Source: Phytoactinopolyspora halophila
GTDB taxonomy: Bacteria; Actinomycetota; Actinomycetes; Jiangellales; Jiangellaceae
NCBI RefSeq assembly: GCF_003287285.1
Contig: NZ_QMIG01000034.1
Location: forward strand, 1 to 44,514
Length of the DNA: 44,514 nt
Reading direction: 5' to 3'
The notes beneath the pieces were generated by a model. It saw only the letters and a list, made by a program, of their open reading frames with translations, was not told where the DNA came from and made no database searches. Below, piece after piece: positions 3,927 to 17,188 of this stretch. The stretch's first letter is position 1. Each line of letters opens with the position of its first letter. The translations under genes were made by a program, and so were the position numbers.

Positions 3927-4658
3927 ATGATCGAGGTACGAGAGCTGACCAAACGCTACGGCCGGACGGTCGCCGTGGATCGCCTGTCCTGCACGGTGGA
4001 ACCGGGGAAAGTCACCGGGTTCCTCGGGCCGAACGGTGCCGGCAAGACCACCACGATGAACATCGCGCTCGGCCTGCACCGGCCGACATCCGGTGAGGTC
4101 CTGATCGGCGGTCGCCGTTACGGCGATTTGCGCCAGCCCATGCGTCACGTGGGAGCACTGCTCGATGCCGGTGCTGTCCATCCGGCCCGAAGCGCGCACC
4201 ACCATCTGCGCTGGCTGGCGCTCAGCAACGGCATCGGGTACCGGCGGGTGACGGAGACGCTGGAGATGGTGGGGCTGGCCGGCGTTGCCCGGAAGAAGGT
4301 GGGCGGCTTCTCGCTGGGGATGCGGCAGCGGCTCGGTGTGGCCGCGGCCCTGCTGGGCGACCCGGGAGTGTTGATGTTCGATGAGCCGGTCAACGGGCTC
4401 GACCCGGACGGAATCCGGTGGATCCGCGAGCTGATGCGCTCGCTCGCGGCTGAGGGCCGGACTGTCCTCCTCTCCAGCCACGTGATGAGCGAGCTGGAAC
4501 AGACCGCGGACCGGCTGGTCATCGTCGGCCGGGGCAGGCTGATCGCCGACACCACGGTGCGCGAGCTGGCCGACAGGTTCGGCCGGCTGGAAGATGCGTA
4601 CGTGTCGCTGACATCGCAGGCGGTCGAGTATCCCGCCGGCCGGGAGGGCATCGCATGA
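3927..4658 (+). CDS. ABC transporter ATP-binding protein
   Basis: A 243-residue ATPase; the ATG at 3927 puts the start directly before the first strand (MIEVRELTKRYG), and longer upstream readings lack family sequence. Walker A is GPNGAGKTT near residue 40, the signature is FSLGMRQRLG, Walker B is VLMFDEPVNGLDPDG, and the switch region is LLSSHVMSELEQ. Signature variant SLGMRQR is typical of the multidrug/bacitracin-type ABC-2 ATPases. It overlaps the permease start by four bases, forming a two-gene transporter. It is divergent from the two-component genes across about 168 bases that should contain both promoters. The substrate is unknown; lipid, antibiotic or peptide export are the usual roles. 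Confidence 0.92.
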   Translation: MIEVRELTKRYGRTVAVDRLSCTVEPGKVTGFLGPNGAGKTTTMNIALGLHRPTSGEVLIGGRRYGDLRQPMRHVGALLDAGAVHPARSAHHHLRWLALSNGIGYRRVTETLEMVGLAGVARKKVGGFSLGMRQRLGVAAALLGDPGVLMFDEPVNGLDPDGIRWIRELMRSLAAEGRTVLLSSHVMSELEQTADRLVIVGRGRLIADTTVRELADRFGRLEDAYVSLTSQAVEYPAGREGIA

Positions 4659-5428
4659 GTGGCGTGCTGCGTGCCGAACTGCTCAAGATCTACTCGGTCC
4701 GGTTCACCGCATGGACGTTGTCGCTGGCCGCGATCCTGGCGATCGGGGTGAGCTACCTGATGGGGCTGAACCTCCGGCACAACATCGCGGACCGGTCCGC
4801 AGAGCAGCTGACGCGGTTCGATTCGTTGTTCGCCGCCTTCTACAGCCTCACGCTCGCGCAGCTCCCCCTGGTGGTCTTCGGCGTGCTCGTGGTCGGCAGC
4901 GAGATCTCCACCGGCACGATCCGGGCAGCCCTGGCGGCGACGCCGCAGCGTGGCACGTTCTACGTTGGCAAGGTGCTGGCCGTGGCGCTGCCGGTGGCGT
5001 GCCTGGCGATCGTCACGGTGCCGGTGGCCTTCACGGTGGCGCAACTGGCACTCGGGCCGCACGGGATGACGCTGGGTGACGACGGCGTCCTGGGAGCTAT
5101 GGCGGGTAGCTGGATCTACCTCACGCTCATTGTCCTGTTCGCGGCCGGATTCGCGATGATCACGGGAGCGTCGACGCGTGCGATCGGGATCATGCTTCCG
5201 GTGTTCTTTCTCGGCTCGCAGGGGCTGGGCAACGTCCCGTACGTGCGCGAGGTGGCACAGTACCTGCCGGACCAGGCGGGCATGGTGATCATGCATGTCG
5301 CCGGGCCGCAGGACGATCCGGCGTTCGCCCACTCCTACGGGCCGTGGGTCGGCCTCGGCATCGTCGCCCTCTGGACAACGGTGGCGCTCGTGGGAGGTTG
5401 GTTGGTGCTGCGTCGTCGGGACGTCTGA
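4655..5428 (+). CDS. ABC-2 type transporter permease
   Basis: A 257-residue integral membrane protein with a short cytoplasmic N-terminus (MSGVLRAELLKIYSVR, the usual LxxELxKl entry of ABC-2 permeases) and six predicted spans near residues 20-38, 60-82, 105-128, 145-170, 175-195 and 230-250. The sequence TGTIRAALAATPQRGTFYVGK after the second span is the coupling-helix region common to these permeases. The ATG overlaps the ATPase stop. It should form the channel half of the transporter as a dimer. Expression is likely controlled by the adjacent two-component system, by analogy. Confidence 0.9.
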   Translation: MSGVLRAELLKIYSVRFTAWTLSLAAILAIGVSYLMGLNLRHNIADRSAEQLTRFDSLFAAFYSLTLAQLPLVVFGVLVVGSEISTGTIRAALAATPQRGTFYVGKVLAVALPVACLAIVTVPVAFTVAQLALGPHGMTLGDDGVLGAMAGSWIYLTLIVLFAAGFAMITGASTRAIGIMLPVFFLGSQGLGNVPYVREVAQYLPDQAGMVIMHVAGPQDDPAFAHSYGPWVGLGIVALWTTVALVGGWLVLRRRDV

Positions 5429-5550
5429 GCACCGTCGTCGCGTCGAACACATCGATCACCAGGGTGTAGGAACGGCAGCGGCAGGGCCTGGCCGAATGCG
5501 TTCCGGTTAGCTGAGATGCTGCATCGGTAGGGAGAACGACTGCGGTTGGG

Positions 5551-6618
5551 GTGGATGTGAGCACGAGCGAGGAACCGACGACGAATCCGAGGCATGCTGC
5601 GAGCGGACGTCGCGAGCTCCGGTCCGACGATCCGGTGCTGAGCTGGGCCGGTGTCGTCGAGATGGAGCACACGCCGGAGTGGTCGCGCGGGTGGCGGTTG
5701 CCACTGCGCCGGATCGGGCTGTTCCCTGGCGACGACCTGCGATTTCGTGCGGGGATGCAGGCGGGAGTCCGGGTCGAGTTCGACACCGACGCACGCATCG
5801 TCGGTGGCCGGGCCGTCCCGGTGTCTGATGACGCCGAGACGCAGATCGTGGACCTGGTGGTTGACGGCCGGCTCGCAGGTTCGGTCCCGGTCGGCGCGAG
5901 CGGCGATTTCTCGTTCGGGGAGCTGCCAGCGGGAGAGAAGTCCGTGGAGCTGTGGCTGCCGCAGTTCGGCGATTTCCGGCTGGCGGCCGTGGAGGTCGAC
6001 GCTGCTGCCCGTGTGTGGCCGGCGTCGCCCTCTCGTCGCCCGCGGCTGCTCACCTACGGCAGCTCGATCACCCAATGCCGGACTGCCGCGTCGCCGACCA
6101 GGACATGGCCGGCGATCGTCGCGCGTGAGCTCGACTTGGACCTGACCTGCCTCGGGTTCGCTGGCGAGTGCCACCTCGACCCGATGGTCGGCAGGATGAT
6201 TCGCGACCTGCCGGCGGACGTGCTCGTGGCGTGCCTGGGCATAAATGTCTACGGCCAGGGCACGTTCACCAAGCGGTCGTTCCTGCCCGCGATGCTGGGG
6301 TTGCTGAGCACCATCCGGGACGGCCATCCGGGAGTACCGCTGATCGTCATGTCACCGATCGTCAGCCCGGAGCGTGAGAACACGGCGGGCGCGTCTGGGA
6401 TGAGCCTGGCAGGGATGCGTGCCCAGGTCGGCGAGGCGGTGCAACTGCTGCGTGAGGATGGCGACAAGGACATCCAGCTGCTGGACGGGCTGGACGTGTT
6501 CGGACCCGGGCAGGCACACATGCTGGGCGACGGGGTGCACCCGAACGCCGACGGCTACGCGCACATGGCGGGCTCGATTACGCCGGTGGTGCGCATGGCC
6601 TTCGCGCCCGCCCGATGA
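5551..6618 (+). CDS. SGNH/GDSL-fold hydrolase (carbohydrate-esterase-like)
   Basis: A protein of about 355 residues with no signal peptide. Residues 25-150 form a beta-rich N-terminal domain as in two-domain esterases. The SGNH core begins near residue 165: block I is TYGSSITQC with the nucleophile at about S172, block II Gly is in LGFAGEC, block III is GINVYG (Asn oxyanion residue), and block V is DGVHPNADGY with Asp and His near 330 and 333. The usual GDS is GSS here, as in several acetyl-xylan-esterase relatives. The likely reaction is deacylation of a sugar ester. ATG 5551 and GTG 5557 are both possible starts; a G-rich run lies just upstream. It is monocistronic; the following regulator has its own promoter-like sequence. 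Confidence 0.85.
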   Translation: MDVSTSEEPTTNPRHAASGRRELRSDDPVLSWAGVVEMEHTPEWSRGWRLPLRRIGLFPGDDLRFRAGMQAGVRVEFDTDARIVGGRAVPVSDDAETQIVDLVVDGRLAGSVPVGASGDFSFGELPAGEKSVELWLPQFGDFRLAAVEVDAAARVWPASPSRRPRLLTYGSSITQCRTAASPTRTWPAIVARELDLDLTCLGFAGECHLDPMVGRMIRDLPADVLVACLGINVYGQGTFTKRSFLPAMLGLLSTIRDGHPGVPLIVMSPIVSPERENTAGASGMSLAGMRAQVGEAVQLLREDGDKDIQLLDGLDVFGPGQAHMLGDGVHPNADGYAHMAGSITPVVRMAFAPAR

Positions 6619-6663
6619 CCCCAGAGGCGGCAAGACGTCGGTGGGCTGGGCTAACGTGCACAT

Positions 6664-7635
6664 GTGTTGGATCCGACGGACATAGAGCCCCAGCCCGCGT
6701 TGCAGCGCGTATTGCGCGCCATGGCGGTGGACGCGATCGGCGTCGAGGTCGGTGGTCGCCTGCGTACTAGCTCGCAGTACCAACGCGAGCTTGGCGTCGG
6801 AGCCGGTACGGTCCAGAAGGCGCTTGGCGTCCTGGTGTCCTCCGGCGCGCTGGCCGTCGCGTCGCGTGGACATCAGGGCCGACAGGTGGTGGACAGGAAC
6901 GTCGGAAGACTGTGGGCGCTGTCCGGCGCCCGGGCGTTGCGGTGGCTGCTGCCTCCACTGGGCCCGCTGGAGTGCTATGGCCTGGCCGAAGCGATCGCGG
7001 ACGAGCAACGGCGTCTGCAGGTGCCGATGGAGTTGTGGTACCGGCGCGGTGCGGCGCGCCGCGCGGAAGCGGTGATCTCCGGGGAGGCGGACGTCACCGT
7101 CATGTCTTGGGGAGCGGCGCGCAGCCTGCAGGAGAGCATGGCCGACGGGCTCGATATCACCGACCTCGGTCCCGACACGTACTACGCCGAGGGGTCCATC
7201 CTCGTCTTGCACCGCGCCGGGGAGGAACTGCCCACGAGCCCCACACGGACCCGGGTGGGCGTTGACCACTCGTCATACGATCACGTGACCTTCACCGAGG
7301 CGGAATTTCCCCCGACGGAGGGGTACGAATACGTCGAGTGCGATTTCCCGCACATGCCGGTCGCGGTGGCAGAAGGGCGTGTCGACGTCGGTATCTGGCA
7401 CCGGATGCTCCTGCTCATCCCACTCGATCTGGCCAACGTTGCGCACCGACCGTTGCAGAGCCCGGCGGCGCGCAAGGCACGCGAGGAGCTTTCCCGGGCG
7501 GTACTGGTGTGCGAAAAGTCGAAGCCGGAAGTGCTGGCCATCCCGGCCGCCATGGACCTGTCGGCCGTCCAGCACCGGCAGGCGGAGCTCACGGGCCTCG
7601 ATGAGCGGTCGCCCGAGCTCAGCGAGCTCTACTGA
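6664..7635 (+). CDS. YhfZ-like transcriptional regulator (winged HTH plus ligand-binding-like domain)
   Basis: A 323-residue protein starting at GTG 6664. Residues 20-75 form a helix-turn-helix (LRTSSQYQRELGVGAGTVQK), then a large alpha/beta domain from residue 90 resembles periplasmic-binding/type-2 sensors, with PPLGPLECYGLAEAI and the C-terminal block. This arrangement matches the YhfZ family, known from the Escherichia coli yhf operon. None of the yhf catabolic partners is nearby, so its targets are unknown. A -10-like TAACGT at 6652-6657 sits six bases before the GTG, suggesting a leaderless transcript; no good -35 is seen. Family assignment is fairly confident, function is inferred. Confidence 0.75.
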   Translation: MLDPTDIEPQPALQRVLRAMAVDAIGVEVGGRLRTSSQYQRELGVGAGTVQKALGVLVSSGALAVASRGHQGRQVVDRNVGRLWALSGARALRWLLPPLGPLECYGLAEAIADEQRRLQVPMELWYRRGAARRAEAVISGEADVTVMSWGAARSLQESMADGLDITDLGPDTYYAEGSILVLHRAGEELPTSPTRTRVGVDHSSYDHVTFTEAEFPPTEGYEYVECDFPHMPVAVAEGRVDVGIWHRMLLLIPLDLANVAHRPLQSPAARKAREELSRAVLVCEKSKPEVLAIPAAMDLSAVQHRQAELTGLDERSPELSELY

Positions 7636-7698
7636 TTCCGTTAATCGAGGTCCCCCCGGCCACGCACGACAAGAGCCGAATGAGGTAACGCTCGGGTA

Positions 7699-7730
7699 TT
7701 GACCTCAATAATCAGAAATCTGATTATTGA
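7699..7730 (+). promoter_or_regulatory. Sigma70-type promoter overlapped by a perfect 26-bp dyad
   Basis: TTGACC at 7699-7704 and GATTAT at 7722-7727 are separated by 17 bases, and the A of the downstream ATG at 7734 falls at the expected start site. Bases 7705-7715 and 7720-7730 are perfect 11-bp inverted arms around AAAT, filling the spacer and the -10. The layout is that of a repressor operator on a leaderless promoter. Confidence 0.6.
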
Positions 7731-7733
7731 GCA

Positions 7734-8018
7734 ATGACCCTTGCGGAGCAACTTTCCGGGATCGATCGCTGGTTAGGCCGTCGAATCGATGACGTGCTGC
7801 ATGGTGGCCTCGTCGTTCACCACATAGAGAGCGACGTCCAGCTCTATCTATCTCGGTCCTGGCATAGCCAATCTTCGACACGGCAGGTGTGGACGGCTCG
7901 GTACGCTGAATTGTCCGCAACGGAAAGTTCAGCTGTGCTCATCGTGCAGGCCGGTTCAGTCTCAGTTGCACTCTCATCTAGTGTAGAAATCTCAGAAATC
8001 GTAGAGATTCTAATCTAA
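7734..8018 (+). CDS. Small protein of unknown function
   Basis: A 94-residue reading frame starting at ATG 7734 and ending TAA. The composition is unlike the neighbours: AT-richer, with codons such as TTA, ATA and AGA tolerated. The sequence has an amphipathic N-terminus (MTLAEQLSGIDRWLGRR), a His/Val-rich middle, and a C-terminus alternating hydrophobic and Ser residues that ends SEISEIVEILI-like. No signal peptide, membrane span or known motif is seen. Evidence that it is real is mainly the promoter and palindrome placed exactly at its start. There is no Shine-Dalgarno, consistent with leaderless translation. It could instead be a chance frame in acquired DNA. Confidence 0.4.
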   Translation: MTLAEQLSGIDRWLGRRIDDVLHGGLVVHHIESDVQLYLSRSWHSQSSTRQVWTARYAELSATESSAVLIVQAGSVSVALSSSVEISEIVEILI

Positions 8019-8518
8019 CAATCCCCTGTTCTTGAGTGTGAAACAAGCCGTATTATTCTAGTTCTAGCCGTGATCACACATGTCGTGCAAGTGTTTGGCA
8101 GGACACGAACCTGGGTCCTTTTGGGTGCGAGCGGGCCGTTGTGCGATGGTCTATTCGGGCACCGGTTTCGATGTCGCACTGCACAATCTGCCGACGGCCG
8201 TTTCTCTGCCAGATGCTCCCAGAATGTGATCACGCGGACCATTGCCTCACGATCACATGCAGGAATCGACTCCAGGGCAAGAGTATAAATTTGCCCGTTT
8301 ACGCACCGAAATACTAATCTTATTCGTCGTGGTTCAAATCCTTCTCGAGCCAGAAAAAGCGATGTCAAATCCGATCGCTTATTCATCGAAACGAGCCGAA
8401 TGTTGTCTAAGTATGGGCTAATCTTTACTTAAAAAATCGAGGGTCATTTTGGCCCCTTTGCACGGATCGGTGCCACTCATAACGTATGACTCGAACCCGA
8501 AGTTGCAAGGAGGGTCAC
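8019..8518. other. AT-richer intergenic stretch before the secreted-protein operon
   Basis: About 500 bases with markedly lower GC than the flanks and no convincing gene on either strand. It contains a stem of 7 bp (8357-8363 with 8374-8380) and, just before it, a sequence resembling a tRNA T-loop and 3' end (GGTTCAAATCC then CTCGAGCCA, about 8331-8352) that does not fold into a tRNA. Near the end a weak TTGCAC (8458-8463) and TAACGT (8480-8485) could drive the downstream operon. The composition points to acquired DNA. Confidence 0.5.
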
Positions 8519-8887
8519 ATGAAAAAGACACTCGTCAGCGTAATGTCCGTAGCCGCGTTGGGGTGTGGTCTACTGACGGTCTCGTCGGCGTGGGCTGAGG
8601 AGCCACAACAATGCCGGATTTTGGCGTATACGCCGGAGCAGGTTGGAGCGGAGGTTGACGGGACTGGTGGTCGACAAGGATGCGTATCGAGCGGCGTTGT
8701 CAGAACGAGCCTCATGCATGAGCGAACGCTTTGGGACTCAGAACTCGCTTTTCGCAGTGGAGATGTTACAAACGTCATCTGGACGGCCACTGCGGATTGC
8801 CTGAGCGGCTCGAACAACTACTACACCGAGACTAGCGGCCCCGGAGGTCAGGAGGTAAGTTCGATCACTGTTAGTTACAGTTGTTGA
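8519..8887 (+). CDS. Secreted four-cysteine small protein
   Basis: A 122-residue preprotein. The ATG at 8519 follows a very strong Shine-Dalgarno (AAGGAGGG at 8507-8514). Residues 1-26 are a Sec signal peptide: MKK, a hydrophobic core, and a cleavage site after SSAWA. The mature part of about 96 residues has four cysteines (QQC, RQGC, TADC, and the final residue), enough for two disulfides, and is Ser/Thr/Tyr-rich with predicted beta strands. I do not recognise the family; it is not a clear lactococcin-972-type bacteriocin. The stop overlaps the next ATG (TGATG), so it is co-translated with an ABC transporter. Plausible roles are an exported toxin, signal or adhesin, with the transporter as exporter or immunity. 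Confidence 0.8.
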   Translation: MKKTLVSVMSVAALGCGLLTVSSAWAEEPQQCRILAYTPEQVGAEVDGTGGRQGCVSSGVVRTSLMHERTLWDSELAFRSGDVTNVIWTATADCLSGSNNYYTETSGPGGQEVSSITVSYSC

Positions 8888-9705
8888 TGATATCGTCGGC
8901 GATCGTGGCCGGTGTTCCTGCGGTTGAGGTTGCTGATCTGACGGTTCGGTATCGGCGCCGGGTGGCGTTGGATGCGGTGAGTATGCGGTTGTCTGGCGGC
9001 ATTGTCGGTGTGCTGGGTCCGAATGGTGCGGGCAAGACCTCATTGCTGTCGGTGCTGGCCACGGTCAGTCGTCCGGATGCCGGGCGGGCCACTGTTCATG
9101 GGCGCGATGTGTCCTCGGCGGTGGCCCGTTCGGCCGCGCGGGAGTTGATCGGGTGGTTGCCGCAGCGGTTCGATCTGTCGGGGTCGATGACGGTGCAGGA
9201 CACGGTGGCGTATGCGGCGTGGTCGCATGGCGTGCCGGTGGCTGATTGTGCGCGGGCCGCTATAGAGGCGTTGTCGGTCGTTGACCTTGAGGAGCGGGCC
9301 ACGGATCGGGTGCGGCGGTTGTCGGGTGGGCAACGTCAGCGGTTGGGGTTGGCGGCGGCGATCGCGCACGAGCCGCCGGTGTTGTTGCTGGATGAGCCGA
9401 CGGTGGGGTTGGATCCGTCGCAGCGGGTGCGGCTGCGCCACTATCTGAGGGCGATCAGTACCGGGCGGACGATCATTGTGGCGACGCATTTGATCGAGGA
9501 TGGTGCGCAGCTGTGTGACGAGCTGGTGGTGCTGCGTGCGGGCACGGTGGCTTATCACGGTTCGCCGCAGGCTCTGGCTGACAGCGTCGCCGAAGAAGGG
9601 GCTGGCGAGGATGGCAGCGGTGTTGGCGGTGCGGGCGCGCCGGTGTTGTCGACGCCGTTGGAGCGGGCGTACGAGCGGTTGGTGGGCTCGGAGGATGCCG
9701 GGTGA
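8887..9705 (+). CDS. ABC transporter ATP-binding protein of the secreted-protein operon
   Basis: A 272-residue ATPase whose ATG at 8887 shares its A with the upstream TGA. Walker A is GPNGAGKTS near residue 47, the signature is RLSGGQRQRLG, Walker B is VLLLDEPTVGLDPSQ, and the switch His is in VATHLIEDG. The stop overlaps the following GTG start. A Gly/Glu-rich linker near residues 235-255 precedes a short helical tail. It should energise transport by the two downstream membrane proteins. Sequence between 9000 and 11030 is strongly G/T- and G/C-biased with few rare codons, so despite the AT-rich promoter patch, these genes have host-like composition. Confidence 0.9.
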   Translation: MISSAIVAGVPAVEVADLTVRYRRRVALDAVSMRLSGGIVGVLGPNGAGKTSLLSVLATVSRPDAGRATVHGRDVSSAVARSAARELIGWLPQRFDLSGSMTVQDTVAYAAWSHGVPVADCARAAIEALSVVDLEERATDRVRRLSGGQRQRLGLAAAIAHEPPVLLLDEPTVGLDPSQRVRLRHYLRAISTGRTIIVATHLIEDGAQLCDELVVLRAGTVAYHGSPQALADSVAEEGAGEDGSGVGGAGAPVLSTPLERAYERLVGSEDAG

Positions 9706-11030
9706 GGTGGGCGCGTCGGATTATCTGGCCGGTGCCCGTGTTGATCGTCGGTGTAGCTGTGGTGGCGGTAACGGGTTCGGTGCTGCTGCATGGCTGGGCG
9801 TTGTTCACGTGGCCGGTGGCGGACTGGGTGCAGGTGTCGGCGCAGTTTCACGAGTCGCTGGTGCTGGCCGGTCCGGTGCTGGCCGGCTGCGCGGCATGGG
9901 CGGCTGGGGTGTTCACGCCTCGCAGTAGCATCGTGTGTCCGGCGTCGGCGCCGCGGTCGGGTGCGCCGCTGGTGCTGCGGCAGGTGGGTGTGCTGGCAGG
10001 TGCCGGGCTCCTGGGGTACGTGCTCGTGTTGGCGCCGTTGGTCGTGTCCACGGCCGTGCGGGCCACTGCGGGCGGACCGGACGTGCTCGTGATCGCCAGT
10101 GGTGTGGCCGGTCTGGTGGTGTTCGCACCGGCCGGTTATCTGATCGGAGTGGTGTTGCCGCGGTGGGCCGGCATCCTGGCTGCGGTTGTCGGGTCGTTCG
10201 CGTTCGTGCTGGCCGCCGAGCTAGTTGGCCGGGAGGCGGTGGCGATCACGCCGACGTGGCTGACCGGGCTGCCGTCGGCCGGCTACGAGGTGAACCCGGT
10301 GCTGTCGGTGTTCCGGGTGTTCTTTTTCGTCGTGCTGGCGGCCTGTTGCGTGATCGCGGCAGCGCGCTGGGTGTCGGGACGCTCGACGGCAACGTTGCGC
10401 ACCTCGGTTTCCGGGTTACCGGTGCTGGCGCTTCCCGCCGTGATCGCACTGGTCGCGCTGGCCCGCCCGGCCGAACCTCTGGACTATGAGGAAGACCCGC
10501 CCCGAGTCTGCGAGGACGCGGGCGGCATCGACGTGTGCGTGCATCAGGCTCGCGCCGACGTGCTGGCCCCGCTAGCCGGGGCGGTGGCGGACACGGCGCA
10601 CGCGGCTGGGCTGTCCGACTCCACATTGGTCGACGAGGTATACGACGCGATCCTGTGGGACGATGACGGCACCCGAGACCGGGTCATTCTGCAGCTACAG
10701 CTTCAGGACAGCGATGCCTGGCTCGATCGGGCCGCACTCGATGTCGCGGGCGAGATGTCCGGCGCCCGATACTGTCACCGGCTCAGCCGCGACACAGCCG
10801 GCATGTCTGGTGTACCCGCCGACGAGTACCTCGTTTCGCAAGCCGTCGCCCACTGGATCTGGGCCAGCGCCGGCTACGCGGGCTTTGCCCTGCAAGGCGG
10901 CGTACATCCAGATGTCGACCAGACCGTCGACCGCCTGAACCAGCTACCGGATGAGCAGGTTCGCGACTGGATCGCGAACCACCATGCCGACCTGTTCGAC
11001 TGCGACGTCGCCCTGGACGAGCTGCCGTGA
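9702..11030 (+). CDS. Membrane protein with C-terminal extracytoplasmic domain (probable ABC permease)
   Basis: A 442-residue protein starting at GTG 9702 inside the ATPase stop. The first 265 residues hold six or seven membrane spans. The last 175 residues form a soluble domain with four cysteines (RVCED, DVCVH, RYCHRL, FDC), an acidic loop YEEDPP, and a helical C-terminus. Following an odd or even number of spans this domain should lie outside, where disulfides can form. Related actinobacterial ABC permeases carry a similar C-terminal domain of unknown function. It could bind the secreted four-cysteine product of the first gene. The role as permease is inferred from operon position; no permease signature is obvious. 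Confidence 0.7.
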   Translation: MRWARRIIWPVPVLIVGVAVVAVTGSVLLHGWALFTWPVADWVQVSAQFHESLVLAGPVLAGCAAWAAGVFTPRSSIVCPASAPRSGAPLVLRQVGVLAGAGLLGYVLVLAPLVVSTAVRATAGGPDVLVIASGVAGLVVFAPAGYLIGVVLPRWAGILAAVVGSFAFVLAAELVGREAVAITPTWLTGLPSAGYEVNPVLSVFRVFFFVVLAACCVIAAARWVSGRSTATLRTSVSGLPVLALPAVIALVALARPAEPLDYEEDPPRVCEDAGGIDVCVHQARADVLAPLAGAVADTAHAAGLSDSTLVDEVYDAILWDDDGTRDRVILQLQLQDSDAWLDRAALDVAGEMSGARYCHRLSRDTAGMSGVPADEYLVSQAVAHWIWASAGYAGFALQGGVHPDVDQTVDRLNQLPDEQVRDWIANHHADLFDCDVALDELP

Positions 11031-11665
11031 TACGTAGCTGGCGGCTGTTCCTCGCCGCACGCTCGGCCCGCACCGCACTCGTACTCGCCGCTGTCGTGGT
11101 CCTCGTGTCGCTGCTCGAACGGGGCACGGTCATCGAGATCCGATTCGTCGTTACCGAACCGTCCCGCTCGACCATGCTGTGGGAAGCGTTACCGGCGATC
11201 TACGGCACGCTGGTCGGCGCGCTGATCGCCCCACGCATGCACAGCTGGGAACGCACCGCGACCGCGCCCTTGCGCTGGTACTACGCCGCTACCACGACAG
11301 TAGCCCTCGCCACGCCCCTACTCGGGCCATGGTTGGTGCACGTCACGCTGCCGGCGCAAACGTCGGGTACCGGCATCCTGTTCAACGTCCTCATGATCAC
11401 CGCGATCGGGCTGCTGGCGACCTGCCTGCTCGGCACCATCATCGGCCCCCTGATCGCTCTCAGCACCTACCTCACGGTCATCCTGGCCCAGCACGCCGCC
11501 CGCGACCTCACCGCCTGGCTACCCTTCTCCCACAGCCTCGCCGAACCCACACCCCACACCTGGGAAACCCTCGCCGCCGCAACCCTTGCCATCGCTGCCT
11601 GGACCATCACCCGTGGACAGTCGGCACTCGCCCGGGCAGTACAACGCGACTCCGTGGGCGCGTGA
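11027..11665 (+). CDS. Membrane protein, last gene of the secreted-protein operon
   Basis: A 212-residue membrane protein starting at GTG 11027, overlapping the previous stop by four bases. About six hydrophobic segments lie near residues 15-33, 55-70, 83-103, 117-143, 148-165 and 183-200, with a short basic C-terminus. It has no recognised motif. With the 442-residue protein it probably makes a heteromeric ABC permease, since one ATPase gene is followed by two membrane genes. An immunity function is an alternative. The operon ends here; the next 160 bases show no gene or clear terminator. Confidence 0.7.
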   Translation: MIRSWRLFLAARSARTALVLAAVVVLVSLLERGTVIEIRFVVTEPSRSTMLWEALPAIYGTLVGALIAPRMHSWERTATAPLRWYYAATTTVALATPLLGPWLVHVTLPAQTSGTGILFNVLMITAIGLLATCLLGTIIGPLIALSTYLTVILAQHAARDLTAWLPFSHSLAEPTPHTWETLAAATLAIAAWTITRGQSALARAVQRDSVGA

Positions 11666-11932: not shown

Positions 11933-13489
11933 ATGAACCACATCGCCGCTCCCAGGATCGCCCGCCGTACGTTCCTCAAGGGCTCAGTGGTCGGGGGTGG
12001 ACTACTCGTTGCCGGATGTGGAAACGACACAGACCCTGGAGCCGGGTCGAATTCGGCGGGCGAGTCGTCCGCCAAGACCCTCCGGGTCGGCATCCCGACT
12101 GACGTCGAGCTGCCCAAGACACAGATGTTCGTCGCCACCAACCAGCCTCTCCGGCGAACGGTGTTCGATTACTTGATCGACAAGAACCCGGACGGTACTT
12201 ACCGGCCGGCGCTGGCACGTGAATGGGAGTGGAACGACGATCGCACCGAGCTGGTGCTGACGCTGCGCGATGGGGTTACGTTTCACACCGGCAGGGAGTT
12301 CGGCCCCGAGGACGTGCTGGCCTCGGTCGAGGCAGCACTTTCGGAAGAGTCCAGTGCACAGGCTGCCAAGCTGCTCGAGCGGGCGGCCACTATCGAAGAG
12401 TCCGGCCCCATGGAAGTCACGGTGACCTTCGACAGCCCTTTCCCGAGCTATCTGGACGCGCTGGCCATGCTGCCCATCATCGACTCGGAAACCTACCCGG
12501 ACATTGCCGACGGCGAGCAGGTCGTCGGTACTGGCCCGTTCCAGTGGAAGTCGTGGACGCCGGGTCGCGAGATCGAGATGGTCCGGTCCGATTCCTATTG
12601 GGGTGACCAGCCCGCCATCGAGGAGGTGCTGTTCCGGATCATCCCCGAGCCGGAGGCCATGCTCGCCGCGATGCGATCGGGCGAGCTGGAGCTGGTCAAC
12701 CGCATGACCCCACGCGATGCCAGCAGGCTGCCGGAAGACCGCTTCGTCGTCGACAACAGCGAAGGCTTTGACGTCTACGTGGGCGTGAACACCGACGTGC
12801 AACCCCTGGACGACATCCGTGTCCGCCAGGCGATCGCCTACGCCCTCGATCGCGAGCGCATCGCGGAGCAGGTATACAGCGGGCTGGCGGAGCCCAGCTG
12901 CGTGCCGTGGTCCAGCAGCGTGCCCGGGGTGACGGAAGAACAGACGACGCACTACGCGTACGACGTGGAGCGAGCCAGGACGCTGCTTCAGGAGGCCGGT
13001 GCGGAGGGAGCCGAGGTCGTGCTCACGTCCTTTGCGGCCGACCCCGCGTACGGCGCCGTCGAGGAGATCGTCCAGTTCGGGCTCGAAGAGATCGGGTTGA
13101 ACGTCCGCTCGGAAGCATATGACCAGGCGGAGTTCGTCGAGCATCTGCAGGCGGCTGACTTCCCGGGACTCTGGGTCACGCCCATCGCGCTGACCGCGAT
13201 GGGGCCGGCGACGGCGCTTATGACGGCGTTGCCGTTGACGGTCGGGGAAAACACGCACAACGTCACCGATGCCGAATACGAATCCTTGGTCGAGGATCTG
13301 ACCACTGCAGCCTCGGAGGAAGAACGGGAAACGGCGACGAGCGCACTGACCGACTACATGCTGGAGCAGGCCTTCCACAACACCGTGGTACAGGCTCAGA
13401 CGCCGGTGGTCGGCGTCACCGGACTGAGTGGAGTCGAGGTTGATCTCACCCTCGCCCTCGATCTGACAAAGGCGACGTTGAGCACATGA
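11933..13489 (+). CDS. Family 5 ABC-transporter substrate-binding lipoprotein
   Basis: A 518-residue extracellular solute-binding protein. The N-terminus carries a twin-arginine-like motif RRTFLKG, a hydrophobic stretch and a lipobox LLVAGC, so it is probably a Tat-exported lipoprotein. The mature part shows the family 5 pattern: RTVFDYLIDKN, LAREWEWNDDRTELVLTLRD with FHTGREF, DVYVGVNTDVQPLDDIRVRQ and AIAYALDRERIAEQVYSG. Family 5 proteins bind oligopeptides, nickel, or oligosaccharides. The adjacent sugar-acid-type enzymes favour a carbohydrate or sulfated ligand, but this is inference. GGAGGGATC precedes the ATG. The stop overlaps the permease start by four bases. It is the first gene of the operon. 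Confidence 0.9.
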   Translation: MNHIAAPRIARRTFLKGSVVGGGLLVAGCGNDTDPGAGSNSAGESSAKTLRVGIPTDVELPKTQMFVATNQPLRRTVFDYLIDKNPDGTYRPALAREWEWNDDRTELVLTLRDGVTFHTGREFGPEDVLASVEAALSEESSAQAAKLLERAATIEESGPMEVTVTFDSPFPSYLDALAMLPIIDSETYPDIADGEQVVGTGPFQWKSWTPGREIEMVRSDSYWGDQPAIEEVLFRIIPEPEAMLAAMRSGELELVNRMTPRDASRLPEDRFVVDNSEGFDVYVGVNTDVQPLDDIRVRQAIAYALDRERIAEQVYSGLAEPSCVPWSSSVPGVTEEQTTHYAYDVERARTLLQEAGAEGAEVVLTSFAADPAYGAVEEIVQFGLEEIGLNVRSEAYDQAEFVEHLQAADFPGLWVTPIALTAMGPATALMTALPLTVGENTHNVTDAEYESLVEDLTTAASEEERETATSALTDYMLEQAFHNTVVQAQTPVVGVTGLSGVEVDLTLALDLTKATLST

Positions 13490-14439
13490 CTCGTTACGTG
13501 CTGCGGCAGGTGATGAGTGGACTCGCCGTCCTGTTGGCGACGTCTGTCATCGTGTTCGGACTGCTGCACCTCGCCCCGGGCGACCCCGCATCCATCCTGG
13601 CGGGTCCGGATGCCGCCGAGGACACGATCGCTGCGATCAGAACGGAGATGGGGCTCGACCAGCATCCGGTCGCGCAGTACCTCGACTGGCTGCGGCAGCT
13701 GCTGACCGGGGACCTGGGGATGTCCTACACGCTAGGTCAGCCGGTCAGCGAGCTGATCGGGCAGCGGATTGGCAGCACGCTGCAACTCACCGTGACCGCT
13801 ACGTTCCTCATGATCTTGCTGGGCACGGCGATGGGCGTCGGGCTGGCTACGAGCAAGTCCAGAGTGATCAAACAGGGTATCGACTCTATGGCCACCCTGG
13901 CACTGGCGATGCCTCCATTCGTCAGTGGTGTCCTTCTCATCTTTCTGTTCGCTGTGGTGTGGGGAGTTCTACCCAGTGGTGGTGAGGCGTCACTGCTGGG
14001 TGAACCCGCTGACGCGGTGAGCAGATTGATCTTGCCCAGCATCGCGATGGCTCTGCCGACCGCACCGGTCCTTGGCCGGCTGCTGGCGACGGAGATGCGC
14101 CGCACACGCGATCAGGAGTTCGTCCTCACCGCTCAGGCCAAGGGCGCGAGCACGCGTTGGATCACGTGGCGTCACGTGGTTCCGAACAGCCTGGGGCCGG
14201 CGATCGTCGAGCTGGGAATCCGGGTTGGCCACCTGCTGGGCGGGGTGGTCGTCGCCGAGGCGATCTTCGCGCGAGCCGGTTTGGGGAGCCTCCTGGTCGA
14301 GGCGGTGCAGACGCGGGATTACCGGCTCGCCCAGGTGCTACTGCTGCTCGGGATCGCCGTCATGATTGCCGCGCAGTTGGCCACCGAGGTCTGCATGGCC
14401 CGCCTTGATCCGCGGATCCGATTGGGGGTGAGCTCGTGA
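13486..14439 (+). CDS. DppB/OppB-type ABC transporter permease
   Basis: A 317-residue permease with an N-terminal anchor (YVLRQVMSGLAVLLATSVIVF), the family loop LAPGDPASIL, and EMGLDQHPVAQYLDWL followed by LTGDLGMSYTLGQPV, all hallmarks of DppB. The cytoplasmic EAA loop near residues 220-245 includes QAKGASTRWITWRHVVPNS. About six membrane spans are predicted. ATG overlaps the binding-protein stop; its stop overlaps the next gene. It pairs with the DppC-type protein to form the import channel. Confidence 0.92.
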   Translation: MTRYVLRQVMSGLAVLLATSVIVFGLLHLAPGDPASILAGPDAAEDTIAAIRTEMGLDQHPVAQYLDWLRQLLTGDLGMSYTLGQPVSELIGQRIGSTLQLTVTATFLMILLGTAMGVGLATSKSRVIKQGIDSMATLALAMPPFVSGVLLIFLFAVVWGVLPSGGEASLLGEPADAVSRLILPSIAMALPTAPVLGRLLATEMRRTRDQEFVLTAQAKGASTRWITWRHVVPNSLGPAIVELGIRVGHLLGGVVVAEAIFARAGLGSLLVEAVQTRDYRLAQVLLLLGIAVMIAAQLATEVCMARLDPRIRLGVSS

Positions 14440-15320
14440 GCACGACGGCCTTCACGGGCGCGGAATCGGTCGACGGAGGTGGGCAAGCACCGGTCGTCCC
14501 GCGTAGCCGGGGGCGATATTGGCGTGCCGTGAGGAGTCCACGGGGAGCAATCGGCCTGGCGTTGGTGGCGTTCGTCATCCTCGTGAGCGTCATTGGCCCG
14601 TTCTTGCTCTCTTACGGACCGTTCGAACAAGGACCGAACAGCCTTCAGCAGCCGGGTTCGGATCACCTCATGGGCACCGACGAGGTAGGGCGCGACCTGC
14701 TCGCGAGGGTGCTGGCGGGTACCCGTGTGGACCTGATCATTACTTTGGTCGCGGTACCCGTCGCGGCAGTGATCGGTACGCTGTTGGGGCTCGTCGCCGT
14801 TGTCAGCCGGGTCGCCGACGCTGTGGTTCAGCGGATGTTCGATGTTCTCATCGGTGTGCCTGCGGTAATTCTCGGTATTGGTGTCGCGATCGCGATCGCT
14901 CCAGGTATGGAATCGGTCATGATCGCGATCGCGCTGGTGACCATGCCGATCTTCGGCAGGCAGGCCCGCGGCGCGCTGCTCGGCCAGCTCTCGTTGGACT
15001 ATGTCGCGGCGGCCGAAGTTCTCGGTTATCCGCGGCGCCGGATCATGATGAGGCACATCCTGCCGAACATCGTTGATGTGATCTTCGTCCGTTTCGCCGT
15101 GGAAATGGCACACGCCATCATGATCGAAGGCGGCTTGAGCGTCGTCGGTCTGGGGATCCAGTCACCGCAGCCGTCGCTGGGGTCGATGATCAAAGATGGC
15201 AGTTCGTACCTCTTCGAAACTCCGCTGTATGCCCTAGCCCCGATCTTCGTCGTCCTGCTCCTCGTCGTGGGCTACTTCATGGTGTCCGACGCACTCAATC
15301 AGGCGGTGTTGCGCACGTGA
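14436..15320 (+). CDS. DppC/OppC-type ABC transporter permease
   Basis: A 294-residue permease starting at GTG 14436. It has the DppC features: a cytoplasmic N-terminus of about 35 residues, first span near residues 38-60, the stretch PGSDHLMGTDEVGRDLLARV, and an EAA loop AAAEVLGYPRRRIMMRHILPN. Six spans are predicted in total. GLGIQSPQPSLGSMIKDG near residues 236-253 is another family block. Overlaps of four bases at both ends keep it in the operon. Confidence 0.92.
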   Translation: MSTTAFTGAESVDGGGQAPVVPRSRGRYWRAVRSPRGAIGLALVAFVILVSVIGPFLLSYGPFEQGPNSLQQPGSDHLMGTDEVGRDLLARVLAGTRVDLIITLVAVPVAAVIGTLLGLVAVVSRVADAVVQRMFDVLIGVPAVILGIGVAIAIAPGMESVMIAIALVTMPIFGRQARGALLGQLSLDYVAAAEVLGYPRRRIMMRHILPNIVDVIFVRFAVEMAHAIMIEGGLSVVGLGIQSPQPSLGSMIKDGSSYLFETPLYALAPIFVVLLLVVGYFMVSDALNQAVLRT

Positions 15321-17188
15321 CCGAACAGGTTGTTCTAGACGTACGGAACCTGGGCCTGGAGTTGAGCCTGGAATCCGGCGGCGTGCCTGTCGTCAGCGGA
15401 GTCACGTTCTCCGTACCGGCTGGACAGATTCTCGGCGTCGTCGGGGAATCAGGATCGGGAAAGTCCCTGACCGCGCTGTCGATCGGCCGCATGTTGCCGC
15501 GGGCAGCCACGGTGGTGAGCGGAAGTATCCACTTTCAGGGTCGCGACATGCTCGAGATGCCCGACGCGGAGGTTGCCGCACTCCGTGGCGCCGAGCTGGG
15601 CATGGTATTCCAAGATCCGCTGGCATTCCTCAATCCGTTGATGACCGTGGGCCAGCAGATCCGCGAGGTGCTCGTCCTGCACGGTATGCCGAAGGACAAG
15701 GCGGAGGTGCGGGCAGTCGAACTGCTGGAACTGGTCGGTGTTCGGGATCCGGAGAAGCGGAAAGACGACTACCCGCACACGTTCTCGGGCGGCATGCGGC
15801 AGCGGGTGATGATCGCGATTGCGGTTGCCAACAACCCGGCCCTGTTGCTGGCCGACGAACCCACGTCCGCCCTCGACGTCACGGTGCAGGAAGGCATCCT
15901 GCGGCTGCTGGCCCGGCTACGTTCCGAGCTCGGCATGGCGTTGGTGCTGATCACACACGACATGAGTCTCGTCGAGGAGATCTGCGACTCGGTCATGGTG
16001 ATGTACGCCGGCCGAGTCGTCGAGCAGGGGAGCGTGCGAGACGTGATCAGGGAACCGCGGCATCCCTACACGCGGGAGCTCATGCGATCGACGCCGCGGC
16101 TGGATCGGCCCACACGTGAGCGCCTGCCCGCCATTGCCGGGAAACCACCGGACGTCACGAGCCGTCCCGACGGGTGCCGGTTCCACCCACGATGTCCGCT
16201 CACCATGGACCGCTGCCGTACCGACGAGCCGGCGCTGGTGGATCGAGGAACGGATACTCCTCACCACGCCGCCTGCTGGGCCGCAGCCGAGCCATTGCCG
16301 GCGTCGACCCCACCGACCCCGGGAAGCTCGAGGACGAGCCAGACCGGATCAGAGGGGACGCCGATCCTCGATGTGCAGGACGTATATGTCAGCTATCAGC
16401 GCAAGGCCCGCTTGTGGCGGCAGCCGGACGAGCGGCCGGTAGTGGAGGGAGTCAGCCTGCGTGCCCATTCCGGCCGAGCGCTCGGGCTCGTCGGCGAGTC
16501 CGGTTGTGGCAAGTCGACGCTTGCACGAACCATCGTCGGGCTCTTGTCGCCCTCTTCCGGCCGCATCAGCATCGACGGCCTGCAATGGACACACGCCAGC
16601 CGGGAGGAACGAAACCGGCTGCGGCGCACGGTGCAGCTTGTGTTCCAAGATCCGTACCTGTCGCTCAACCCACGCCAGACGGTGCGCCAGATTCTTACCG
16701 AGCCCCTGGTGGTACATGGGCTCGCGTCGCGAGAGCGTCGCCAGTCACGGGTGGGTGACCTCATCTCGCACGTCGGTCTTCCGGTGAGTTTGCTCGATCG
16801 GTACCCGTACCAACTGTCCGGCGGCCAGCGGCAGCGGGTCGGAATTGCCAGGGCACTCGCTGTCGAACCCCAGCTGATCGTCGCCGACGAGCCGGTATCG
16901 GCGCTCGACGTCTCGGTGCAAGCACAGATCATCAATCTCCTGGCTGACCTGCGAGATGAGCTCGATCTCGGATATGTCGTGATCGCGCACGATCTGAGCG
17001 TCGTGCGCCACCTGTGCGACGAGGTGGCGGTCATGCGCGCCGGAAAGATTGTCGAGCATGGACCCACGTCGGAGATCTTCAGTGCACCACAACACCCGTA
17101 CACCCTGTCCTTGCTCGCGGCTTCCCCCGGTTCGCCGTGGGCCCGCCCGGAACCCGCCATTGATGCCGTCGATGAGGTGACTGAATGA
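15317..17188 (+). CDS. Fused DppD-DppF dual ATPase of the importer
   Basis: A 623-residue protein carrying both ATPase halves, as in GsiA-type transporters. The first half (about 1-330) has Walker A GESGSGKSLT, signature FSGGMRQRV, Walker B LLLADEPTSALD, then the oligopeptide C-terminal block RFHPRCPLTMDRC. A Pro/Ser/Thr linker of about 25 residues joins it to the second half (about 350-623) with GESGCGKSTLA, LSGGQRQRVGIARAL, LIVADEPVSALD and the end block APQHPYTLSLL. All catalytic elements are intact in both halves. The Cys residues in the first C-terminal block may hold a metal or iron-sulfur site, as suggested for DppD. Start and stop overlap the neighbours. Confidence 0.93.
   Translation: MTEQVVLDVRNLGLELSLESGGVPVVSGVTFSVPAGQILGVVGESGSGKSLTALSIGRMLPRAATVVSGSIHFQGRDMLEMPDAEVAALRGAELGMVFQDPLAFLNPLMTVGQQIREVLVLHGMPKDKAEVRAVELLELVGVRDPEKRKDDYPHTFSGGMRQRVMIAIAVANNPALLLADEPTSALDVTVQEGILRLLARLRSELGMALVLITHDMSLVEEICDSVMVMYAGRVVEQGSVRDVIREPRHPYTRELMRSTPRLDRPTRERLPAIAGKPPDVTSRPDGCRFHPRCPLTMDRCRTDEPALVDRGTDTPHHAACWAAAEPLPASTPPTPGSSRTSQTGSEGTPILDVQDVYVSYQRKARLWRQPDERPVVEGVSLRAHSGRALGLVGESGCGKSTLARTIVGLLSPSSGRISIDGLQWTHASREERNRLRRTVQLVFQDPYLSLNPRQTVRQILTEPLVVHGLASRERRQSRVGDLISHVGLPVSLLDRYPYQLSGGQRQRVGIARALAVEPQLIVADEPVSALDVSVQAQIINLLADLRDELDLGYVVIAHDLSVVRHLCDEVAVMRAGKIVEHGPTSEIFSAPQHPYTLSLLAASPGSPWARPEPAIDAVDEVTE

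Follow-up and report, generated by a model that had tools for sequence, protein, structure and literature searches.

A four-gene operon in Phytoactinopolyspora halophila, located at positions 8519 to 11665 on the + strand of contig NZ_QMIG01000034.1, is a real and conserved system. The operon encodes a small secreted protein (the cargo), an ATP-binding cassette (ABC) ATPase, a permease with a large C-terminal ectodomain, and a second membrane protein. The latter three are referred to here as the module, and the window is the whole 44,514-nucleotide stretch of the contig that was analyzed; genomes and loci are cited by G and L numbers. Our preferred reading, which we put forward tentatively, is that the operon may encode a Sec-secreted antibacterial protein and an ABC immunity module that work in a manner analogous to lactococcin 972 systems.

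The operon and its small secreted protein

The features of the operon, in window coordinates, are as follows.

8507 to 8514, + strand: ribosome-binding-site-like sequence (AAGGAGGG), 4 bases 5' of the small-gene ATG, as read from the sequence
8519 to 8887, + strand: small secreted protein (cargo, P0001), 122 amino acids, assigned from its signal peptide, homologues, and model
8519 to 8596, + strand: predicted Sec signal peptide of the small protein, residues 1 to 26, ending in AWA at residue 26
8887 to 9705, + strand: ABC ATPase (P0002), 272 amino acids, with a presumed start that overlaps the cargo stop
9702 to 11030, + strand: permease (P0003), 442 amino acids, GTG start
9702 to 10466, + strand: permease membrane part, residues 1 to 255, with an ABC-2/type V exporter-like fold in the model
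10485 to 11027, + strand: permease ectodomain, residues 262 to 442, with Cys 270, 279, 358, and 434
11027 to 11665, + strand: second membrane protein (P0004), 212 amino acids, GTG start, no family match

The original prediction for this stretch had proposed four coupled genes, and the open reading frames were found as it described them. The junctions overlapped by 1, 4, and 4 bases, and gene coupling could be read from these overlapping stops and starts. Its descriptions of a Sec-signal small protein with four Cys, an unrecognized cargo family, and a permease ectodomain with four Cys were borne out as well. Specifically, the predicted signal extended to residue 26, the four mature Cys (residues 32, 55, 94, and 122) were invariant in 8/8 aligned small proteins, and searches of Pfam and NCBIfam with P0001 (E up to 1) returned no families in either. 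Exactly four ectodomain Cys were found in 11/11 aligned permeases; three of the Cys columns were invariant, and the fourth was aligned in 6/11 permeases in the A2 alignment. A lipoprotein reading of Cys16 of the small protein was rejected because this column had no Cys in all seven aligned homologues.

In the AlphaFold2 model, the cargo was predicted to form an all-strand immunoglobulin (Ig)-like β-sandwich over about residues 31 to 122, with a block-mean predicted local distance difference test (pLDDT) score of 95 to 98. The fold matches of the model in the PDB were generic Ig-like proteins, namely, the RsgI4 sensor (Z 9.0), CsgH (Z 8.3), and a CTLA-4 nanobody entry (6rqm_A, Z 8.3). Lactococcin 972 was absent among the fold matches listed, which excludes nothing. 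The sole PDB sequence relatives of the cargo were TALE-repeat chains, which we took to be composition artefacts, and no match to P0001 was found in the plasmid collection (E 0.1).

The ATPase matched Pfam ABC_tran (E 6.6e-29), and its best NCBIfam match was TIGR01188 (drrA), under the cut-off of that family. No family was matched by P0004 in the Pfam search. Consensus searches for an operon promoter or terminator gave counts that were not above those in shuffled sequence.

Co-occurrence and loss of the cargo gene

The host genome (5.04 Mb) belongs to the same class as Nocardiopsis. When 393 genomes of this class were searched with P0001, matches were found in 17 (E ≤ 0.01). Eight were module linked, specifically, those in the host genome (G000), G115, G157, G203, G238, G282, G390, and a remnant in G011. 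One was a long protein of CAP-type length (G258), one was solitary (G300), and seven were attributed to chance after a profile re-check, in which G029, G053, G090, G101, G152, G232, G292, and the second G282 hit gave no match. Beyond the host genome, cargo and module were adjacent in six genomes (G157, G238, G115, G203, G282, and G390).

A scan of named genomes with the Nocardiopsis cargo alignment returned 14 loci (13 from Nocardiopsis and one labelled Glycomyces), in one of which (L100) the cargo gene was incomplete. The order cargo-ATPase-permease-transmembrane protein was kept in 14/14 of these loci and in G157 and G238, which was the outcome of the co-occurrence check that the original prediction had proposed. 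In the six Nocardiopsis-type loci for which both flanks were identified (L046, L087, L091, L147, L148, and L150), fba lay on one side of the cassette and purA on the other. The locus labelled Glycomyces fuscus (L091, NYMS01000031.1) occupied this fba-purA site and grouped with Nocardiopsis in the tree; the record is probably misnamed.

Among 40 Nocardiopsis genomes, a close module was present in 18 and absent from 22, and cargo and module co-occurred with a Fisher p of 4e-8 (damaged cargo was counted as cargo, distant solitary relatives were left out, and relatedness was ignored). The 14 loci described above were 14 of these 18 Nocardiopsis modules, and one count therefore cannot be taken as independent of the other. 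In the close family, 17/18 of the intact cargo genes read adjoined a module, the exception being G300. Thus, the "dedicated" module of the original prediction stood as a regular partnership in the close family, but the partnership was not absolute, as there were solitary and CAP-fused relatives of the cargo.

We assembled 25 close modules: 18 in the 40 Nocardiopsis genomes, two in the host genome, and one each in G011, G020, G050, G157, and G238. The ATPase, permease, and fourth protein had unbroken frames in all 25, and a P0004-type protein was matched beside the permease in each. An intact cargo gene accompanied 17 of them. The gene was damaged or reduced to a remnant in four (G586, G616, G011, and the host paralogue) and missing from four (G607, G617, G020, and G050). 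Within Nocardiopsis, 14 of the 18 modules had an adjacent intact cargo gene, including that of G595. The cargo was truncated in G586 and lacked its N-terminal part in G616, and none was adjacent in G607 or G617. The modules of G586, G607, and G617 shared fba and purA as flanks, with extra genes between fba and the ATPase gene in G617; purA was the only flank seen for the G616 module. In G011 and the host paralogue, short cargo remnants were located just upstream of the ATPase gene (profile E 6e-4 and 1e-4, respectively). This second host module (L012, G000:C59:188000-198500) was distant, with a permease that was 28% identical, and the cargo-like remnant upstream of its ATPase gene was C terminal. 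Among more distant permeases (G234, G262, G108, G017, G019, G362, and G583), no cargo was found in the loci read. A broken cargo gene with no module was present in G266.

To compare constraint, the ratio of nonsynonymous to synonymous substitutions (dN/dS) was obtained by codon comparison of nearest pairs. The ratio for the G586 cargo remnant was 0.82 (63 codons) versus 0.19 to 0.48 in five intact pairs. In the G607 and G617 modules, the ABC genes had ratios of 0.22 to 0.52, and those of modules with cargo were 0.12 to 0.49. The window-L011 ATPase pair was discarded, as a wrong ATPase had entered that comparison. A pump that is constrained without its partner fits immunity or an independent function, not a dedicated exporter. 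When the intact-cargo label was placed on a 24-permease tree, in which several long branches were unsure, it required six to seven changes (gains or losses) and was not clustered (335/500 shuffles were as low).

The permease and its covariation with the cargo

We examined cargo-ectodomain covariation by distance correlation over 13 loci; L100, whose cargo gene is incomplete, was left out. Distances among cargo proteins correlated with those of the ectodomain (r 0.71), ATPase (0.63), fourth protein (0.54), and membrane part (0.46). The partial r with cargo was 0.47 for the ectodomain, -0.40 for the membrane part, and 0.17 for the fourth protein, and the ectodomain value stayed within 0.38 to 0.63 across every leave-one-out. 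The label-shuffle p for the cargo-ectodomain pair was 0.008, in a shuffle that ignores phylogeny. These sequence comparisons lent modest support to contact between the cargo and the ectodomain.

The permease model had a mean pLDDT of 83. Residues 5 to 227 of the model matched NosY (Z 14.1, 215 aligned, root mean square deviation [rmsd] 3.6), and the fold of about residues 1 to 230 was like that of NosY- and PmtCD-type ABC transporters (Z 14.1 and 11.1), with a sequence identity of about 10 to 13%. To our knowledge, NosY- and PmtCD-type transporters are without a large C-terminal four-Cys ectodomain. In the model, residues 265 to 442 matched residues 209 to 425 of LTA4H, an M1 gluzincin peptidase (Z 8.6, 152 aligned, rmsd 3.9), a likeness near the level of mere common arrangement. 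The HExxH motif was present in 0/11 permeases versus 9/9 M1 controls, on which basis an active peptidase was rejected, and the permease profile showed no similarity to the M1 (PF01433) profile (probability 0.4). A helix near residue 350 (LDVAGEMSG) appeared in the model to occupy the HExxH place, and we treated a pseudo-peptidase ectodomain as a lead only. No sequence relatives of the ectodomain were found in the PDB at E up to 1. P0003 had no match in the plasmid collection (E 1e-3), and no relative turned up when it was first used to scan named genomes; P0003-like permeases were present in 16/393 genomes of the class (E ≤ 1e-8).

The original prediction had presented the operon as a candidate new system. 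The permease is not an orphan: profile comparison identified it as distantly related to DUF7224 (PF23866) permeases. The permease profile aligned with a profile of seven DUF7224 permeases over 375 columns (probability 99.3, E 4e-20). The Pfam DUF7224 score of the window permease was 14.1 versus a gathering cut-off of 27 bits, and 1/11 permease-family members matched DUF7224 at E up to 1. DUF7224 matches were found in 11/197 genomes of the class, and seven loci were read. As in the operon described here, ATPase and transmembrane genes adjoined the permease gene in 7/7 of these loci, in one of them in another order. Small secreted genes were found upstream of the module in 2/7 (L187:4320-5245 and L190:6585-6998), and the encoded proteins belong to a sequence family that differs from the cargo. 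This family has two conserved Cys and an ESR.W.DNN motif, and it matched nothing in Pfam or NCBIfam. Homology to the cargo was rejected, the link being a weak profile match alone (E 0.003, probability 10). A literature search on DUF7224 found nothing.

Candidate functions of the operon

According to our preferred reading, the small protein would be exported by Sec and would fold outside the cell as an Ig-like β-sandwich with two predicted disulfides, which would be expected to join Cys 32 to Cys 55 and Cys 94 to Cys 122. It would then bind an envelope target of competing actinobacteria and act as a putative antibacterial; any identification of the target with a cell-wall precursor is guesswork based on analogy. 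Together, the ATPase, ABC-2-type permease, and second membrane protein would make up a pump with which the producer guards itself. The permease ectodomain may bind the small protein, either free or together with its target, and the bound protein would then be dislodged or extruded at the expense of ATP.

The analogy is with lactococcin 972/streptococcin operons (TIGR01653-TIGR01654-TIGR03608), in which a Sec-secreted small β-sandwich protein (PMC11796350) is likewise followed by an ABC module. A β-sandwich small protein with a Sec signal is thus common to the lactococcin 972 family and, in the model, P0001. Streptococcin B is described as a Sec-secreted β-sandwich bacteriocin with a lipid II target, and of 571 pneumococcal genomes, 27.5% had its partner genes without the bacteriocin gene (PMC11796350). 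By profile search, however, no lactococcin 972 profile was matched by the cargo, by the permease, or by the fourth protein. P0001 had no match to TIGR01653/PF09683 at E up to 1, so membership in that family was rejected, and P0003 and P0004 had no match to TIGR01654 at E up to 1. The positive control, the G125 operon (L198), matched TIGR01653 at 2.8e-9, above the cut-off, and its membrane protein matched TIGR01654 at 3.6e-12, below the curated cut-off. The control ATPase matched TIGR03608 best, at a score below the cut-off of that profile; TIGR03608 was absent from the best 25 of 201 P0002 matches. The architectures differed as well: the lactococcin 972 membrane protein has about 690 amino acids, whereas a 442-amino-acid ABC-2-type permease and a 212-amino-acid protein are encoded here, and the gene order in lactococcin 972 operons is cargo-membrane protein-ATPase rather than cargo-ATPase-permease-transmembrane protein. 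Lactococcin 972-type operons were present in G125 and G115 (N. listeri). The N. listeri locus (L199, G115:C54) consisted of two tandem lactococcin 972-type genes followed by genes for a 692-amino-acid membrane protein and an ATPase, and this membrane protein resembled that of L198 by eye. Because N. listeri holds both the new cassette and lactococcin 972-type genes, the two are separate systems.

Several observations weighed against our preferred reading. The antibacterial and immunity functions were inferred by analogy, and according to the streptococcin B report (PMC11796350), the immunity role of the streptococcin B partner genes is itself unproven; partner-only strains were inhibited or killed, for which the authors blamed missing expression. 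The cargo was not hypervariable (mean distance 0.209 versus 0.355 for the ectodomain), and it occupied a fixed site in those Nocardiopsis loci that were checked. The mirror-tree signal had limits, since the ATPase also correlated (0.63), 4% of column bootstraps reversed the order, and the shuffle took no account of phylogeny. In G586, the dN/dS values of the ABC genes were 0.41 (ATPase), 0.58 (permease), and 0.32, the first two exceeding the usual range. The G616 cargo, though incomplete, was not relaxed (dN/dS 0.36), and an additional cargo fragment was present at a contig edge; together, these findings suggest that the G616 case may be an assembly matter. The cargo-less G020 and G050 modules may never have had a cargo.

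Relatives of the cargo outside the module weighed in the same direction. The original prediction had held that small-protein homologues without the transporter would refute it, and such homologues were found among more distant relatives, both solitary and CAP fused. Nine solitary relatives had no module in the surrounding 8.5 to 11 kb read (L051, L152-L154, and L201-L205; that is, G300, G563, G573, the second genes of G617 and G615, G557, G599, G465, and G442). G300 was among the sequences in the cargo alignment; the other eight were more distant. The solitary relatives were secreted, and some carried further Cys. In addition, the cargo domain formed the N-terminal part of many CAP proteins in the family to which Nocardiopsis belongs (L065-L086 except L079, L055). 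From the 94 genomes of a family-level scan for the cargo domain, 30 loci were read, along with 5 more short-frame matches from this and another scan. A long frame or a contig end was found in 21/30 of the read loci; 17 passed the CAP pattern, two (L073 and L080) had a CAP-like ending by eye, and two (L066 and L083) were interrupted by contig ends. Pfam identified CAP in both of the long-frame proteins submitted to it. The occurrence of the cargo domain alone and fused to CAP, without the module, fits a general role in surface binding and suggests that a general surface-binding module was recruited into this operon.

Three other explanations were weighed against the same data. The small protein could bind an envelope-active compound, and the ABC ectodomain could recognize the loaded protein and then remove the compound or signal; Bce-like logic is the model for this sensor or detoxification role, which we considered unlikely but the most credible of the three. 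Cargo-ectodomain covariation, the Ig-like fold, and the binding role suggested by solitary and CAP-fused cargo domains all favor it, whereas the persistence of the module without an intact small gene in 8/25 cases argues against it, since the small protein is then not essential to the module. The same eight modules favor a general envelope function, in which the module has its own DUF7224-like role, with the small protein as a dispensable accessory. This explanation also accommodates the DUF7224 modules, which share the three genes and have a recognizable small secreted gene upstream in just 2/7 loci, as well as the 22/40 Nocardiopsis genomes that are without a close module. It is harder to reconcile with the position of 17/18 intact close-family cargo genes beside a module and with the covariation of cargo and ectodomain, and we judged it slightly less probable than a sensor role.

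We regarded as improbable a role for the ABC module in the export, release, or folding of the small protein. A single operon of overlapping genes and a membrane part like that of the ABC-2 transporters NosY and PmtCD would suit such a role, but the small protein carries a Sec signal itself, 8/25 modules have open frames without an intact cargo gene, and no module lies near the solitary relatives that bear signal peptides. The suggestion of the original prediction that the ABC transporter may not export the small protein was supported: the pattern of cargo loss fits a role in immunity, in sensing, or as an independent pump better than it fits export.

An immunity role might extend beyond this operon. 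It is conceivable, although rather doubtful, that there is a new actinobacterial class of Sec-secreted disulfide-type β-sandwich antibacterials, each with an ABC-2-type immunity pump and a pseudo-peptidase receptor, of which DUF7224 modules with different small proteins would be further branches. If the immunity reading is true, an unrecognized antibacterial family would be added to the actinobacteria, and a branch of uncharacterized ABC permeases (DUF7224 and kin) would acquire a function. It would also open to experiment the question of how an ABC pump guards a cell against an externally acting protein, a form of protection described as unproven for lactococcin 972 operons (PMC11796350). No published description of the operon was recognized from titles and abstract starts; subscription papers were mostly outside this search, and an earlier description is possible.

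A helix-turn-helix regulator of the YhfZ type was located at 6664 to 7635. The neighboring regions at 4655 to 7635 and 11933 to 17188 encoded an ABC-2 membrane protein, a GDSL lipase, this regulator, and a peptide-type ABC transporter operon. Directly upstream of the operon, positions 7636 to 8518 held small open reading frames of no clear family and had a G+C content of 51%, versus 66% window-wide and 56% in the cargo gene.

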